NCBI RefSeq assembly: GCF_003284725.1
Contig: NZ_PGTO01000002.1
Span: forward strand, 372,001-436,000
DNA: 64,000 nucleotides
From: Paramagnetospirillum kuznetsovii
GTDB lineage: Bacteria; Pseudomonadota; Alphaproteobacteria; Rhodospirillales; Magnetospirillaceae
Direction: 5' to 3'
Of the stretch, positions 615-44,489 are shown one piece after another. Made by a program: the position numbers and the translations under genes. Positions within the stretch are counted from its first letter, which is position 1. The number at the start of each line of letters is the position of its first letter. The notes under the pieces are model-generated. The model was given only the letters and a program-made list of their open reading frames with translations, ran no database searches and was not told where the DNA came from.

Positions 615-2624
615 TTAGGGCACGACCAGCCGCTTGGTCTTCTTCCCGGCGCAGGCCTCGGCCCAGATCATCTGGTAGGCCCGCTCCATGTCGGCGATGA
701 AGCCCTTGGTGTCGAATAGCGGGGTGGTCAGGCGATTGGCCGCCAGCTTGGCCTTGATGGCGGCCAATTGCGCCGGATCGGAGGCGAGGCGCGCCGCCAG
801 TTCCTCATAGGCGTCGAGATCGGGGCAGATCAGCTCCGGCAGTCCCACATGGGTCAGCAGGCTGGCCGCGACCCGAGCGGCGAACAGGCGGCCCGGCGCG
901 GTAATCACCGGCACCCCCGCCCACAGGGCGTCGCTGGCGGTCGTATGGGCGTTGTAATACAGCGTGTCCAGGAACAGGTCGGCGTGGCGGTGGCGGGCCA
1001 GATGCTGGTCCTTGGGCAGACGAGCCGCGAAGATCAGCCGGTCGGGATCGACTCCCCCGGTCTCGGCGGCGCGTCTCAGATTGGCGACCATCTCCGGGGT
1101 GCCGCCCAGCAGCCACAGCACGGAACCCGGCACCCGGCTTAAGATACGCATCCAGCGGCCGAACATCTCGGGCTCGATCTTGAAGGCCTGGTTGAAGCAG
1201 CAGAACACGAAGCCCGATGGGGGCAGTCCGCATTCATGACGGCTTGGTCCAGCATGGGAAATGATCTGGTCGCGGTCGTTGGACTGATAGCAATGGGGCA
1301 GCACCGCCACCCGCTCGCTGAAGTCGCTCTCGTGGCCGGGGGGGCAGGTCACCGCGTCCACCAGCGCCCAGTCCATGAACGAAGCGCCGCTGGTGCCGGG
1401 CAATCCAAGCCAGTTCACCGTCACCGGCGCAGGGCGCAATGCGGTCAGGGCCAGCCGGTTGCCCCTTGTATGGACGTTGATGTCCACCAGGATGTCCACA
1501 CCGGCCGCCTGGATGGCCTTGGCGGCGTCCAGGGTGTCCAGCGGGCCAAGCTCCACGAACTGGTCCGACTGCTCGCGCACCAAGCGGCGGTAATCGCTGC
1601 CGTCGTCGGGCTCCAGCGCCAGGGTCACCACCTTGAAGCGCGACCGGTCGTGTCCTGGGAACAATCCCCGCATCAGATGGGTGGTGGGGTGGTCGTGAAA
1701 ATCGGCGGACATATAGCCGATGGTCAGGCGTTCGCGCGGGCCGGGCTTGGGCGTCTTGATAACGGCTTTCAGTGGCGCCGCCTCGGCGCTCACGGTCTCG
1801 GCGCGCTGGCGGGCGAACGCCAGCAATTCCTTGGCGGTCAGCGGCAGCGGGAAGGTCAGCGACATCATGGGGCCGACGGCACCCGGCGCTTTCAAGGCAG
1901 GCCCGATCAATGAGTCCCGCAGTCCCTCCACATCGCGCCAGTCGCAAACGCCGAGCCGAGCCTCGGTCAGCCGCGCCCGCATGGCAAGGTCACTGGGCCG
2001 GGCGGCGGCGGCCTTCTCGTAGTAGGCGATGGCGCGGCCCATCTCGCCGATCTTACGCACCGCATTGCCCGCGCCCATCAAGGCTTCCGGCATGGTCGGC
2101 GCAAGGGCCATGGCCCGCTCGAATAAGGAAACCGCCTCGGCGAGCGAGCCGTGATCAGACAGCAGATTGCCCAGATTGACCAGGGTCGGCGGCGCGTCGG
2201 GGGCCAGGGCGAGGGAGCGGCGCAACAGGTCTTCCGCCTCCTTGCGGCGGCCCTGGGTGATGCGGACGCGCCCCAGGCTGGTGAGAAGCTGCCACGAGTC
2301 GGGCTTGGCGGCGAGTCCGTGCTGGAATGCCTCGGCGGCCTCGGCCCAGCGCCCGGATTCACCCAGCAAGGTGCCCAGATTCAGCCAGCCTTCCATCATG
2401 GCCGGAGCAAGGCCAAGGGCCTTGCGCAGCGCGGTCGCGGCGGCGTCGATCCTGCCCCGGTCCTTCAACACGCGGGCGAGATTGTAATGCACCATGGGAT
2501 TGTCGGGCAGCAGCCCCGCCAGCTTGCGCAAGGCGGTCTCGGCCTCGGCCAATTGCCCCGAGCGGTACAGGGCCTCGGAGCGCGATGCCAGCGCTTCGAT
2601 GTCCTGGGCCTTCGCGGGGGTCAC
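615..2624 (-). CDS. TPR protein with O-GlcNAc-transferase (SPINDLY-type) domain
   Basis: The product is about 669 residues. Residues ~1-235 are tetratricopeptide repeats (e.g. PDNPMVHYNLARVLKDRGR). Residues ~300-660 form a GT41 catalytic module with RLTIGYMSADFHDHP, a DINVHTRGNRL segment, WLGLPGTSG and CCFNQAFKI. Such proteins glycosylate protein targets or surface components. I chose the GTG at 2624 because it lies one base past the stop of the upstream membrane-protein gene. An ATG at 2693 would add an Arg-rich tail that merely overlaps the Pro-rich end of that gene. The acceptor is unknown. Confidence 0.75.
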   Translation of the reverse strand: MTPAKAQDIEALASRSEALYRSGQLAEAETALRKLAGLLPDNPMVHYNLARVLKDRGRIDAAATALRKALGLAPAMMEGWLNLGTLLGESGRWAEAAEAFQHGLAAKPDSWQLLTSLGRVRITQGRRKEAEDLLRRSLALAPDAPPTLVNLGNLLSDHGSLAEAVSLFERAMALAPTMPEALMGAGNAVRKIGEMGRAIAYYEKAAAARPSDLAMRARLTEARLGVCDWRDVEGLRDSLIGPALKAPGAVGPMMSLTFPLPLTAKELLAFARQRAETVSAEAAPLKAVIKTPKPGPRERLTIGYMSADFHDHPTTHLMRGLFPGHDRSRFKVVTLALEPDDGSDYRRLVREQSDQFVELGPLDTLDAAKAIQAAGVDILVDINVHTRGNRLALTALRPAPVTVNWLGLPGTSGASFMDWALVDAVTCPPGHESDFSERVAVLPHCYQSNDRDQIISHAGPSRHECGLPPSGFVFCCFNQAFKIEPEMFGRWMRILSRVPGSVLWLLGGTPEMVANLRRAAETGGVDPDRLIFAARLPKDQHLARHRHADLFLDTLYYNAHTTASDALWAGVPVITAPGRLFAARVAASLLTHVGLPELICPDLDAYEELAARLASDPAQLAAIKAKLAANRLTTPLFDTKGFIADMERAYQMIWAEACAGKKTKRLVVP

Positions 2625-40880: not shown

Positions 40881-42719
40881 TCAAATGTCGTACTGATAAT
40901 GTTGTCCGGTACCCTGCCGATCGTCCGCTTCCACATCATGTCGCGGCAGTGTGACGGTGACGATGGTTCCTTGGCCCACCTGGCTATGAATGGCGAGGCT
41001 GCCGCCGTGAAGATCCACCATCTCGCGGACCAGGGCCAGCCCCAGGCCGGTGCCGCCGAAATTGCGGCTGGTGGCGGATTCCACTTGATAGAAGGGTTCG
41101 GTGACCCTGGCGATATGTTCCGGGGGGATGCCGATGCCGGTGTCTTTCACGTTGATGCGAAGGCCAAGGGGCTCGACGTCCACCGACACGGTCACGCTGC
41201 CGCCATCGGGCGTGAATTTCACCGCGTTGCCCAGAATATTCACCATGATCTGCATCAGCCGCGTGCGGTCGGCGGTCAAAGGCGGCAGGTTGTCCAGGCC
41301 AGAGTGACGGAGGGTGACGCCACCCGCATTGGCGCGGGCGCCCAGCATGGCGAGACTGGATTTGATCAAATCGGCGAGGTCGATCTCATCAAGGTCCAAT
41401 TCCACATGCCCGGCCTCGATCTTCGCGATGTCCAAGATGTCATTGACGATGGCCAGCAGATGTTGGCCGGCATTGTGGATGTCGTCGCAATAGGATTTCA
41501 CCTTGCCGTCCACCGGCACGATGATTCCGGTTCGCAGCACTTCGGAAAAGCCGATGATGGCGTTCAAGGGGGTGCGAAGCTCGTGGCTCATATTGGCGAG
41601 GAATTCGCTTTTGGCGCGGTTGGCGATCTCGGCGTCCCGCACCGAGGCCCGCAAGATACGGTTGCCCTCGCTGACGGCGATGCGCATGGCGGTGAAGGCG
41701 CGGGCCAATTCCCCCAACTCGCCGGGGGCCGAGGTATCGAGCGATAGTCCTGGACGCCCCAGCGTGAAGTCGCGGGTCGCCTTGGTCAGGGCGGCCACCG
41801 GCTTGACGAAGCTTCGCGCCACGGCGATCGACACCGCCGCGGCAGCCAAAAAGAACACGACGGCAAGGGACGACATCTTTGTCCGCAACTGGTCCAGAGG
41901 CGCGAGTGCTTCCGCTTGATCCACATGGGCCATGATGCAGCCGCCGCCGATTTCGGGCACGAAGTGGTAACCGTGGATGATGTCCACGTCGCGGTAATCG
42001 AGATCGAGCACTTGGCCCGTCTTGCCGGACAGGCAGGACTGCATGGGGCGGGCTGAAATGGGGTGGTCGTGGCCCTGGGTCGACTCGTAGCGGGCCTTGG
42101 TTATGAACATTCCCTCGCCATCGGCCAGGAAGACCTCGCCCGAATTCCCCAGATCGGCGGTGGGCAGGAACAGGCCCTGAAGAAGGCTGGACGGGAACAG
42201 CAAAGCCAGTTGCAGGTTGCGTTTCGAGTCGATGACGACCATGAAGTAGCTTCGCTCGTCCTCACCGAGCTTCGGCAGAATTCCGACAAGTTGATCGCGA
42301 CCTAATGGCGGGAGCGCGGCGACCTGATCCGGAGCTTCTCCAAATCGTATGTCATCGTTGCGACCAGTTTGATGAAGTACCGCCCCAAGGGCACGCTCGC
42401 TGTGGACAAAGGCCTCCATCGCGCTTTGAAGGCACAGGGATTGGACGGGACGGTTCAGACTGGAACATCGCAGGTCGGTGTCCGCCAGGAATGCCCGCGC
42501 GCGGGCATTTGTCCGCTGGAAAATGGTGACCAACTGGTCATGCTTGGATGTCGCGACTCGGCCGACGCTGTGAAACCGTTCATTGACAATGCTGTCGAAT
42601 GTCGCGTCATAGCTGACCCACCCAACCACAATAGTCGGCAATAGCAGGCAGCCGAATATGATGGCGGCAAGCCGCAGTTCCAATGACCGTGGAGCCCTAT
42701 TTAGCCAGGGATAAGTCAT
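40881..42719 (-). CDS. Membrane sensor histidine kinase
   Basis: The 612-residue protein has TM helix 1 at ~17-36 and a ~245-residue periplasmic sensor region of Cache-like length. TM helix 2 lies at ~284-302, then HAMP. The phospho-acceptor His379 is in NMSHELRTPLNAIIGFSEVL. The ATPase domain carries an N box NILGNAVKFTPDGG, DTGIGIP and GGTGLGLAL. No response regulator is adjacent, so it is an orphan kinase. Cys84 and Cys96 in the periplasmic part might form a disulfide. The signal is unknown. Confidence 0.9.
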   Translation of the reverse strand: MTYPWLNRAPRSLELRLAAIIFGCLLLPTIVVGWVSYDATFDSIVNERFHSVGRVATSKHDQLVTIFQRTNARARAFLADTDLRCSSLNRPVQSLCLQSAMEAFVHSERALGAVLHQTGRNDDIRFGEAPDQVAALPPLGRDQLVGILPKLGEDERSYFMVVIDSKRNLQLALLFPSSLLQGLFLPTADLGNSGEVFLADGEGMFITKARYESTQGHDHPISARPMQSCLSGKTGQVLDLDYRDVDIIHGYHFVPEIGGGCIMAHVDQAEALAPLDQLRTKMSSLAVVFFLAAAAVSIAVARSFVKPVAALTKATRDFTLGRPGLSLDTSAPGELGELARAFTAMRIAVSEGNRILRASVRDAEIANRAKSEFLANMSHELRTPLNAIIGFSEVLRTGIIVPVDGKVKSYCDDIHNAGQHLLAIVNDILDIAKIEAGHVELDLDEIDLADLIKSSLAMLGARANAGGVTLRHSGLDNLPPLTADRTRLMQIMVNILGNAVKFTPDGGSVTVSVDVEPLGLRINVKDTGIGIPPEHIARVTEPFYQVESATSRNFGGTGLGLALVREMVDLHGGSLAIHSQVGQGTIVTVTLPRHDVEADDRQGTGQHYQYDI

Positions 42720-42984
42720 ATTTCCCGATTGCTTTGGTGGGATTATTTAGTTGGCCGAGTACGTCACTATAGTAAATCCATCATATTTTTACGAGTTTCT
42801 CTTGCGGTGGGGGTAATTCAATCTGTGGTTCATCATACTTGCATCCGCACGATGGGGTTGCCGTGACCATGGCGGGGCCGATGGGGAAGGGTTCTAACGG
42901 ATTGATTTATAAAGGGTCATTTGGGGGCGGTGAAAAAACGCGCAATCGCCGGAAATTTTTACTTTTCATCCCTCGAAAACGGCG
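42720..42984. other. AT-richer intergenic region upstream of the decarboxylase leader
   Basis: These 265 bases hold no plausible gene. The region is AT-rich against a ~65% GC background, as expected where the leftward kinase promoter and the rightward decarboxylase promoter diverge. Beyond that I see nothing specific. Confidence 0.5.
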
Positions 42985-42998
42985 TATATAGCGCCGTC
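42962..42998 (+). promoter_or_regulatory. Probable promoter of the decarboxylase leader
   Basis: A TATATA -10 hexamer (42985-42990) sits in the palindrome ACGGCGTATATAGCGCCGT, with a weak CTTTTC -35 about 17 bases before it. A start near 42998 would place the whole speF-type leader in the transcript. Confidence 0.4.
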
Positions 42999-43111
42999 AG
43001 GACAGACGTACAGCGCACGTGCCTCTGACCAGGGTCTGGTCAGGCAACGACGTCAAAGGCGTCTTCCGGGTGCAAGCGGGGTGAAAGCCCCCGGTGCTTG
43101 GAGGAAATCTT
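42998..43111 (+). ncRNA. speF-type leader RNA upstream of the decarboxylase gene
   Basis: Ordered structures precede a 42-codon ORF and a type III ornithine/lysine decarboxylase gene. These are hairpin 43020-43046 (TGCC..TGACCA/TGGTCA..GGCA), a small GACG/CGTC hairpin, then nested AAGC-GGGG/CCCC-GCTT (43074-43099). CCGGG (43066) can pair alternatively with CCCGG (43090). The alphaproteobacterial speF motif is known upstream of ornithine decarboxylase genes. Match by memory of that motif and context; a covariance search would settle it. Confidence 0.65.
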
Positions 43112-43240
43112 ATGAACTCGATTGCTCGGCACGCTTCGGCGTCGTCCGGATTCATTTCCCCGCACTTTTCGGAACCCGTATTCCAGCCGGGCTGGGCCCT
43201 GCTGTGGTCCGATGTTCGAAGTACGTCCAAACGGGCCTGA
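43112..43240 (+). CDS. Candidate leader peptide, 42 residues
   Basis: The short ORF has a strong ribosome site (TTGGAGGAAATC) placed right at the end of the leader structure. The peptide has no family I know; it contains SPHFSEPVFQPGWALLWSDV and ends in basic residues (SKRA). Codons near the end include CGA, AGT and AAA, uncommon in this genome. Its stop codon is the first triplet of an 8-bp hairpin (43238-43262). The layout suggests a regulatory uORF, though translation is unproven. Confidence 0.55.
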   Translation: MNSIARHASASSGFISPHFSEPVFQPGWALLWSDVRSTSKRA

Positions 43241-43317
43241 CGGCATCCCTCCATTGCCGTCACTGACCGGTCTGGCGCCATCCGCGTGATGGAGCGCCGG
43301 TGCCGACGTCTCTTTTC
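43238..43317 (+). promoter_or_regulatory. Two hairpins with U-rich tail between leader ORF and decarboxylase
   Basis: TGACGGCA/TGCCGTCA forms a perfect 8-bp stem starting at the leader-ORF stop. A larger stem (43266-43301, ACC..GGCGC-CATC / GATG-GCGCC..GGT) follows, then TCTCTTTT at 43310-43317. This could be an attenuator controlled by ribosome position on the leader ORF. Confidence 0.45.
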
Positions 43318-43358
43318 CGCCTCATCGTAGACTTTACGGTTCGTTTGGAGCTCTCGCC

Positions 43359-44489
43359 ATGACCGCCAAGATTGCCCGCTTCCTGGATGATGTTCAGCCC
43401 GCCACCCCCTGCCTGGTGGTGGATCTGGACGTGGTCCGACAGAACTATCTCGACATCCGCCACTGGCTGCCGGTGGCCGAGGTGTTCTACGCCGTCAAGG
43501 CCAATCCGGCCCCCGAGATCGTCGCGCTGTTGACCGGGCTGGGCTCCAATTTCGATGTCGCCAGCCCCGGCGAGATCGATCTCTGCCTCGCGGCGGGGGC
43601 CTCGGCGGATCGCATCTCGTTCGGCAACACCATCAAGAAGCAGCGCGACATCGCCTATGCCTATTCCAAGGGCGTCACCCTGTACGCCTTCGACTCCGAG
43701 GCGGAGTTGGAGAAGCTGGCCGAATCCGCCCCCGGCGCGCGGGTGTTCTGCCGCATCCTGATGACCTGCGACGGCGCCGAATGGCCGTTGTCGCGCAAGT
43801 TCGGCTGCGAGGTCGACATGGCCCGTGACCTGCTGGTGCGCGCCCGCGACCTCGGCCTCGACCCCTATGGCGTGTCCTTCCATGTGGGCAGCCAGCAGAC
43901 CGACCTGTCGCAGTGGGATATCGCGGTGGGCAAGACCGCCATGCTGTTCACCGCCCTGGCCGAGGCGGGCATCGAGCTGCGCATGGTCAATCTGGGCGGC
44001 GGCCTGCCCACCAAGTATCGCACCGACATTCCGGCCATGGAGCGTTACGCCGACGCCATCATGACCGCCATGACCGATCACTTCGGCAACAACATCCCCA
44101 CCATGATCATCGAGCCCGGTCGCGGCATGGTGGGCAATTCCGGCATCCTGGAAGCGGAAGTGGTGCTGATCAGCCGCAAGAGCTATGACGACGAGGTGCG
44201 CTGGGTCTATCTGGACGTGGGCAAGTTCGGCGGTCTGGCCGAGACCATGGACGAGGCCATCAAGTACCGCATCGAGACCCCTTACCAGAACGACGAGACC
44301 GGCCCGGTGGCCCTGGCCGGCCCCACCTGCGATTCCGCCGACATCATGTACGAGAAGTGCGGCTATCACATGCCGCTGTCCCTGAAGGTGGGCGACAAGG
44401 TGCGCATTCTGTCCACCGGCGCCTATACCAGCAGCTATTCGGCGGTCAACTTCAACGGCTTCGCCCCGCTCAAGACCTATTTCGTGTAG
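43359..44489 (+). CDS. Ornithine/lysine decarboxylase, type III fold
   Basis: This 376-residue PLP enzyme of the eukaryotic-type ODC / DAP-decarboxylase fold makes putrescine or cadaverine. PLP lysine is Lys47 (FYAVKANP). Further motifs are FHVGSQQTDL, the phosphate-binding VNLGGGLPTKY, IIEPGRGMVGN, and the catalytic Cys in GPTCDSADIMYEKC. The absence of the longer DAP-decarboxylase N-terminal part and the speF-type leader point to ornithine. Alphaproteobacterial relatives can also use lysine. A GGAG ribosome site precedes the ATG. Confidence 0.9.
   Translation: MTAKIARFLDDVQPATPCLVVDLDVVRQNYLDIRHWLPVAEVFYAVKANPAPEIVALLTGLGSNFDVASPGEIDLCLAAGASADRISFGNTIKKQRDIAYAYSKGVTLYAFDSEAELEKLAESAPGARVFCRILMTCDGAEWPLSRKFGCEVDMARDLLVRARDLGLDPYGVSFHVGSQQTDLSQWDIAVGKTAMLFTALAEAGIELRMVNLGGGLPTKYRTDIPAMERYADAIMTAMTDHFGNNIPTMIIEPGRGMVGNSGILEAEVVLISRKSYDDEVRWVYLDVGKFGGLAETMDEAIKYRIETPYQNDETGPVALAGPTCDSADIMYEKCGYHMPLSLKVGDKVRILSTGAYTSSYSAVNFNGFAPLKTYFV

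Follow-up and report, generated by a model that had tools for sequence, protein, structure and literature searches.

The ornithine decarboxylase (ODC) gene in the window, by which we mean the whole 64,000-nucleotide stretch of Paramagnetospirillum kuznetsovii DNA analysed here, is preceded by a leader of about 42997-43358 that comprises a promoter, two RNA domains, a masked ribosome site, a short upstream open reading frame (uORF) and a hairpin at the stop codon of that uORF. Together, the leader and its short conserved frame suggest an uncatalogued feedback switch for polyamine production. We tentatively propose, at a little under an even chance, a cis-acting polyamine-feedback leader, with the RNA as the gate for initiation and a ribosome pausing towards the end of the uORF as the control on the next hairpin. 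Feedback on polyamine synthesis is the most economical reading, and it is supported by the recurrence of the element upstream of enzymes that share a pathway without being homologous.

Architecture of the ODC leader

A reading made from the sequence alone had described a structured leader ending at a strong ribosome site for a 42-residue ORF, followed by two hairpins and the decarboxylase gene. Both parts of this description hold: a GGAGG lies 7 nt 5' of the ATG of the 42-residue ORF, and the ORF, the two hairpins (the second placed by eye) and the ODC gene follow in that order (Table 1). The structured stretch (42990-43125) is predicted to fold at -58.8 kcal/mol (z -2.97), a value that none of 200 shuffles equalled, and in the predicted fold the Shine-Dalgarno sequence of the uORF is wholly paired inside domain 2. 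The uORF ends 118 nt before the ODC start. The ODC protein matches lysine/ornithine decarboxylases in the PDB; NCBIfam yielded matches below its cut-offs only. A histidine-kinase gene lies upstream of the leader in the opposite orientation.

Table 1. Features of the ODC leader, in window coordinates.
Feature	Position	Strand	Basis or detail
Promoter	42962-42990	+	-35-like CTTTTC 42962-42967, 17 nt, -10 TATATA 42985-42990; sequence and conservation in the upstream alignment
RNA domain 1	43005-43063	+	alignment A1, pair counts, covariance model R1 (85.2 bits on the window)
P1 of domain 1, GACGU/GCGUC	43005-43009 / 43059-43063	+	
Domain 1 helix CGUGC/GC(A)ACG	43018-43022 / 43044-43049	+	
P2 of domain 1, CUGACC/GGUCAG	43025-43030 / 43038-43043	+	domain 1 also has a conserved internal loop
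RNA domain 2 hairpin, UCUUCCGGGUGC / GUGCUUGGAGGA	43062-43105	+	predicted fold; equivalent helices in relatives
Shine-Dalgarno GGAGG of uORF	43100-43104	+	sequence; 7 nt to ATG
uORF, 42 aa + stop, MNSIARHASASSGFISPHFSEPVFQPGWALLWSDVRSTSKRA	43112-43240	+	26 of 30 loci have an open frame with the Arg-Ser tail
CGA-AGT codons (Arg-Ser), proposed pause site	43217-43222	+	codon counts in group A and other uORFs
Stop-codon hairpin, UGACGGCA / UGCCGUCA	43238-43262	+	fold, z -2.7; covariation in 24 sequences
Second hairpin, GGCGCCAUC / GAUGGAGCGCC	43274-43298 (approx.)	+	by eye, window sequence only
Ornithine decarboxylase (Orn_Arg_deC type)	43359-44489	+	Shine-Dalgarno TTTGGAG at 43344-43350; Pfam Orn_Arg_deC

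Judged from the sequence, transcription probably starts near 42997. A -10-like hexamer, scored with a pattern of our own, was found 21-34 nt 5' of GCACGTGCC in 79 of 123 sites, compared with 1 of 85 control positions farther upstream; a generic sigma-70 scan did not pick up the promoter of the leader.

Such a leader might mainly yield a short RNA by early termination (as is reported for S. meliloti SmrC45, which overlaps RF00518). The SmrC45 transcript is 181 nt long (PMC2780559), and SmrC45 is tabulated with RF00518 (PMC2873474). The terminator scan of our leader gave one weak site, which equals the chance expectation, and no U-run terminator, so that an intrinsic terminator was rejected; moreover, the uORF and the stop-codon hairpin would be needless for that role. 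We therefore regard early termination as very improbable. A frameshift that fuses the uORF to ODC was likewise rejected, because the other frames close at 43266 and 43289. We also set aside a pairing between GUACGUC in the uORF tail and GACGUAC in P1, which, judged by eye, was confined to the subgroup with ACG after AGT.

An RNA element before genes of polyamine synthesis

Pairing in the RNA was assessed in an alignment of 74 elements, from which the covariance model R1 was also built; 11 of the 85 references were left out (L035, L043, L045, L055, L059, L098, L114, L130, L132, L140 and L141). The columns of GCACGTGCC and AACGACG are invariant by construction, since the pattern searches demand both, and R1 was trained on sequences selected by that pattern. 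We found standard pairs in 85.5% of cells, as against 82.0% in shuffled alignments and 34-50% when partners were slid, and a covariation score of 0.220, as against 0.173 shuffled and at most 0.138 slid. Double changes affected 16 pairs and 95 cells (shuffles, 11.4 and 49.6), but are no better than in the slid controls, where as many as 17 pairs and 96 cells were reached. P1 was paired in 97.8% of cells, and P2 alternates between CUGACC/GGUCAG and AUGGCC/GGUUAU among the aligned elements. Helices 3 and 4 of domain 2 were less well paired, with 80.8% and 73.7% of cells, respectively; this is due in part to the joint alignment of what are two types of this domain.

By DNA similarity, the leader aligns in whole or in part in 36 of 60 genomes, that of P. 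kuznetsovii included. R1 matched 67 of 385 genomes of the class at E<=0.001, in a scan whose filters let weak matches escape. The pattern GCACGTGCC-N(15-45)-AACGACG occurred in 73 of the 385 class genomes and in 141 of 317 genomes of the order; read backwards as a control, it still occurred in 31 and 29 genomes, respectively, by our own count, so that part of the 73 and 141 are chance matches. The claim that the element has a role is carried by gene context, not by the pattern.

That context is consistent. A gene for ODC, ODC2 or HSS (homospermidine synthase), or the LMWP neighbour, lies within 2 kb downstream of 124 of the 138 distinct pattern sites, some of which were fetched because they resemble the element. 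Among 20 newly fetched R1 matches, including L189, which has no gene assignment, 18 precede ODC, ODC2 or HSS, and one (L197) precedes speD-speE; at L197 (158-1912) speD and speE stand downstream of the element, whose uORF there has 8 residues (MSGSSLRG). A scan of contigs with the pattern returned at least 119 stretches, and the 80 that were examined lay before ODC (51), ODC2 (18) or HSS (1), were too short (7) or had no such gene (3). These 80 include Magnetospirillum, Azospirillum brasilense, Zavarzinia, Roseomonas, Parvibaculum and Magnetovibrio, as well as one Mycobacterium match, which has no polyamine gene of the set nearby and looks like a chance hit.

Most ODC leaders of the class are without the element: among ODC leaders from genomes without an R1 match, R1 detected 2 of 40, and RF00518 detected 2 of the 20 scanned. 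Some of the leaders in our sample depart from the common form. Acetobacteraceae-type leaders (L316, L324, L329, L341, L350, L351, L359, L364, L369, L372, L373, L375, L382 and L383) keep domain 1 and have a different second half, TCAAGCGTTCTGGCAACC ... GGTTCGTTCGACCGTTTCGTC, with no suitable ATG for a uORF. The ODC leaders of L273, L274 and L277 have a variant core, CCCACGUGCC or CCCACGUACC ... GUAACGAGG or CAACGAGG, to which R1 is blind, and are possibly a further subtype. One ODC locus (L123, 356-410, minus strand) contains the Rfam chrB-b RNA (RF03086).

The P. kuznetsovii genome itself has three copies of the element: one before the ODC gene of the window, one before HSS and one orphan. The copy on contig C69 precedes the HSS gene, whose product matches solved homospermidine synthases (E 3e-163), and carries the uORF MFVTHKLGYIPEICTSM. 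In the orphan copy (L097, G000:C5:80500-85500, element at about 994-1111) leader and uORF are kept, but the ODC paralogue present behind them in another genome (G009, L113) is missing; 3' of it lie a 59-residue ORF and then a low-molecular-weight phosphatase-like gene. We found no match to AdoMet decarboxylase in this genome.

A short frame with an AGU codon near its end

The uORF is open, with a tail containing Arg-Ser, in 26 of the 30 loci obtained by DNA similarity search, P. kuznetsovii included; the exceptions (L026, L028, L029 and L030) have uORFs with other ends. The ODC leader RNA with a conserved uORF, as the sequence-only reading had it, is thus real, and its role is probably regulatory.

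To describe the tail we used group A, 28 loci selected for it (27 of the window's family and L050), in which the identity of the Arg and Ser residues follows from the selection, and the codon choice and the residues W and D do not. The uORFs of this group are 33 to 49 codons long. The selected Arg and Ser are encoded by CGA and AGT in 28 of 28 loci each; W is present in 26 of the 27 loci with a residue at that place, and D in 27 of 27 (GAT 16, GAC 11). Comparison of these sequences provides strong evidence for codon- or RNA-level constraint that fixes CGA-AGU. Codon-level conservation of the frame, which had been put forward as a check on the uORF, was found in part: the tail is kept, as described above, but pN/pS in group A is only 0.86 overall and 0.68 in the last 16 codons. 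These ratios point to modest coding constraint and weakly support selection on the peptide.

The AGT codon recurs beyond this group. After removal of fused, overlapping and >120-aa ORFs, 84 non-redundant uORFs remained, and 50 of them, at least 13 being related members of the window's group, had an in-frame AGT in the last 14 codons, compared with 8 and 5 in the other frames; AGT was not present near the end in the remaining 34, which include L081, where a better uORF starts at a second ATG. The bias was replicated in 21 new, dissimilar uORFs (12 in frame, 1 and 1 in the other frames) from the 80 examined of at least 119 stretches. Furthermore, seven loci have an RxNPxSS tail with synonymous codon changes (pS 0.66, pN 0.10), a ratio biased downward because the block was chosen by its peptide pattern. 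For the uORFs of seven HSS leaders, pN/pS is 0.58. The length of the uORF differs by clade, from 8 to about 60 residues, with extremes of 2 and 70 in the same 80 examined of at least 119. Conserved uORF ends without the AGU codon also occur and are specific to clades: SFYLQLQH in L202 and L207, and HDLVVIS(K/R)FDVI in L138 and L140.

The RNA 3' of the AGU is more structured than that upstream of it (median z -1.41 in 62 windows, as against -0.43 in 48, with letter shuffles). The stop-codon hairpin of group A was examined in 24 sequences (alignment A2, made without identical rows and without L025, L050 and L009, the last of which contains Ns; L007, L008 and L023 were counted though misaligned in the 3' arm). 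In these, 94% of cells were paired, four pairs showed double changes (6 cells), and the covariation score of 0.252 exceeded those of shuffled alignments (0.192) and of all slid controls (0.203 or less). Further pair types were not distinctive in number, since 81 of 500 shuffles had as many. In the HSS leader of P. kuznetsovii (L187) the layout is the same, AGU-AUG-UGA-CGGCGG forming a predicted hairpin of -30.7 kcal/mol (z -5.0).

At other loci the uORF is fused or absent. In 13 loci of the first set, and in 13 of 70 further named sites with a gene (from the 80 examined of at least 119), the same AUG opens the frame of ODC or of its paralogue, which thereby has an extended N terminus. No suitable ATG was found in 16 of these 70 sites, 14 of which are one Acetobacteraceae-type sequence. 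Among nine rhizobial-type loci with the pattern, seven have no suitable ATG after domain 2, and the remaining two have a more distant ATG that runs into the start of ODC. Since the AUG is fused to ODC (26 loci) or missing, the RNA class does not require the uORF, and the notion of the uORF as a fixed part of the motif has to be given up in view of the fused, rhizobial-type and Acetobacteraceae-type loci. Loss of the uORF where the RNA is kept, which the sequence-only reading had named as evidence against itself, occurs outside the window's clade. As far as sequence comparison goes, it is the RNA that stays constant, with the uORF as a layer added in many lineages, the window's included.

These observations bear on an account in which the RNA acts alone, domains 1 and 2 forming a riboswitch (for homospermidine, for example) that blocks the ribosome site, with a passive uORF conserved mostly at the RNA level. 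The core indeed persists at loci that lack the uORF or have it fused to ODC, the Shine-Dalgarno of the uORF is fully paired, CGA-AGT is fixed at the nucleotide level, and homospermidine lies outside the ligand list of 2005 in the available text of that paper (PMC1273637). However, the in-frame AGU bias and the synonymous RxNPxSS changes across families point to decoding of the frame. Such a switch would also need some coupling, because the masked Shine-Dalgarno in the clade is that of the uORF and not that of ODC. We judge this account unlikely, though it deserves real weight. The converse, an arrest peptide alone, in the manner of SpeFL, would have the nascent peptide sense ornithine or a polyamine while the RNA domain only sets the level. 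The clade-specific conservation of C termini next to the stop codon and hairpin would fit this idea, but the peptides differ widely among clades while the RNA core is constant, and the fused ODC versions have no separate uORF; we consider it improbable.

We thus return to the feedback leader in which RNA and ribosome act together. Transcription would begin near 42997, and the first part of the transcript would be an RNA domain that occurs in Alphaproteobacteria before ODC, an ODC paralogue, HSS and, once, speD-speE. Domain 2 is predicted to pair the ribosome site of the first AUG, which in the window's clade would open a short uORF with CGA-AGU near its end and its stop codon in a covarying hairpin. 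Domain 1 may sense the polyamine state, directly or via a protein, and would open or close domain 2 and so set how often the uORF is translated. Ribosomes pausing near the AGU and the stop codon would then keep the stop-codon hairpin open, and the open hairpin would alter transcription or translation of ODC. At loci with a fused uORF or none, the RNA gate would act alone.

Comparison of sequences argues for the RNA with its paired ribosome site, for a conserved frame with its AGU, and for the hairpin; the ligand, the pause and the effect on ODC we infer. Our estimate rests on gene context, pairing and the AGU, and the pattern and double-change evidence is weakened by the control counts. Against a feedback leader count the near-neutral pN/pS, the AGU missing in 34 of 84 uORFs, the fused or ATG-less loci, the many ODC leaders of the class without the element and the negative ligand tests on speF in 2005. 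A broader version, which we hold to be doubtful, has a two-layer switch, widespread in Alphaproteobacteria, running a polyamine regulon (odc, odc2, hss and speD-speE): the RNA domain, possibly a homospermidine sensor, would gate one AUG, and many lineages would add a clade-specific arrest peptide that pauses at the AGU before the stop-codon hairpin. If true, an in-frame AGU common to leader peptides that differ in other respects would be a pause signal of an unusual kind, and polyamine control in Magnetospirillum, Azospirillum and their relatives would become directly testable.

Relation to speF and other known leaders

The sequence-only reading had called the leader speF-type, a label that did not survive the search it had itself suggested: the Rfam speF model gave no match up to E 10 in the 801 bases of 42700-43500, and we rejected the identification with plain Rfam speF. 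With Rfam release 15, the 64 kb contained no match at gathering score, RF00518 (37 bits) and RF02347 included. Of 20 loci scanned with Rfam, most of which carry the element, the rhizobial-type L031 alone matched there. RF00518 itself matched 6 of 190 class-sample genomes at E<=0.001, four of them above the cut-off. Conversely, R1 recovered four of these six loci, with E values of 1.5e-5 (L034), 7.8e-4 (L031), 1.4e-3 (L032) and 0.049 (L035), gave L036 at E 2 and missed L033; another six leaders of rhizobial type were matched with E values between 5.7e-5 and 9.6e-3.

A distant relation through the 5' domain is what remains of the label. Compared by eye, RF00518 leaders and the window's have the 5' domain CGCACGUGCC ... 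GCAACGACG in common, and both lie upstream of ODC; the speF leader is placed near a putative transcription start (PMC1273637). The sequence evidence for a homologous 5' domain is weak but consistent. Unlike speF, the window's element also stands before HSS, the ODC paralogue and speD-speE. A hairpin lies at the place of speF's long bulged stem-loop after the first stem, but the Rfam model does not recognise it. From their sequences, the two look like distant relatives, with the window RNA outside the Rfam family as defined. At L031 the R1 match covers a match to ar45 (RF02347) and overlaps the start of the speF match (RF00518). The ar45 RNA, listed as an sRNA, there adjoins RF00518 in one ODC leader (1501-1718, minus strand), and is probably the 5' part of that leader because of this adjacency.

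No ligand was given when the speF RNA was first described in 2005, and the available text of a 2024 review still names none (PMC11477304). Ornithine, lysine, DAP, putrescine, cadaverine and spermidine were not bound by the Agrobacterium speF RNA in in-line probing, and the available text of that paper does not name homospermidine among its ligands and describes tests on RNA without ribosomes (PMC1273637). These tests therefore exclude neither an untried polyamine nor a ribosome-based sensor. With a relative of speF before homospermidine synthase and spermidine-synthesis genes, candidate ligands can be named, homospermidine first; a ribosome-based sensor is also possible, and would escape in-line probing of bare RNA. 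The negative tests on this relative (PMC1273637), like the strong conservation of the loop sequence, would also fit a leader that is the binding site of a regulatory protein or an antisense RNA and not a metabolite sensor, an explanation that we find quite improbable. Among the matches listed in searches of the open-licence PMC literature, neither the element before hss or speD-speE nor the AGU feature of uORF ends is described; those for homospermidine synthase with riboswitch comprised, in the available text, a plasmid paper only, and a term search of the available text of the uORF4u paper found no mention.

In enterobacteria, SpeFL is encoded by a short ORF before the ODC gene, with possible arrest near the stop codon. 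Its peptide sequence and ODC family presumably differ from those of the window, and we know of no upstream RNA domain of this kind in the SpeFL leader. The window too has a short ORF before ODC, for which arrest is our proposal. In the uORFC-8-2 attenuator of cysS, a uORF with conserved codons is followed by a stem (PMC8632094); conserved uORF codons and then a stem are likewise found in the window leader, whereas its uORF has no run of codons for a cognate amino acid and the leader no U-run terminator.

Closest in setting is odc1 (uORF-25-1) of Brewer et al. 2021, a leader of alphaproteobacterial ODC in which the ribosome site is sequestered, a pair of UUG starts is separated by two nt, and the uORF, fixed at 11 residues, lies beside the main start (PMC8632094). 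Both are alphaproteobacterial decarboxylase leaders with a masked ribosome site and a short uORF. The window leader, however, has AUG at 43112 and 43359 and no UUG pair, and its uORF is of 42 residues and varies among relatives, unlike the fixed 11 of odc1. An odc1-like leader at L295 (TTG AA TTG, LNCIRFLTPRL), identified by the description and not by a published consensus, had no R1 match at E<=10 and no Rfam match at E<=1. We rejected the identity of the window leader with odc1, as start codons, uORF length, distance to ODC and sequence all differ; on sequence grounds, the two are different RNAs with a similar idea.
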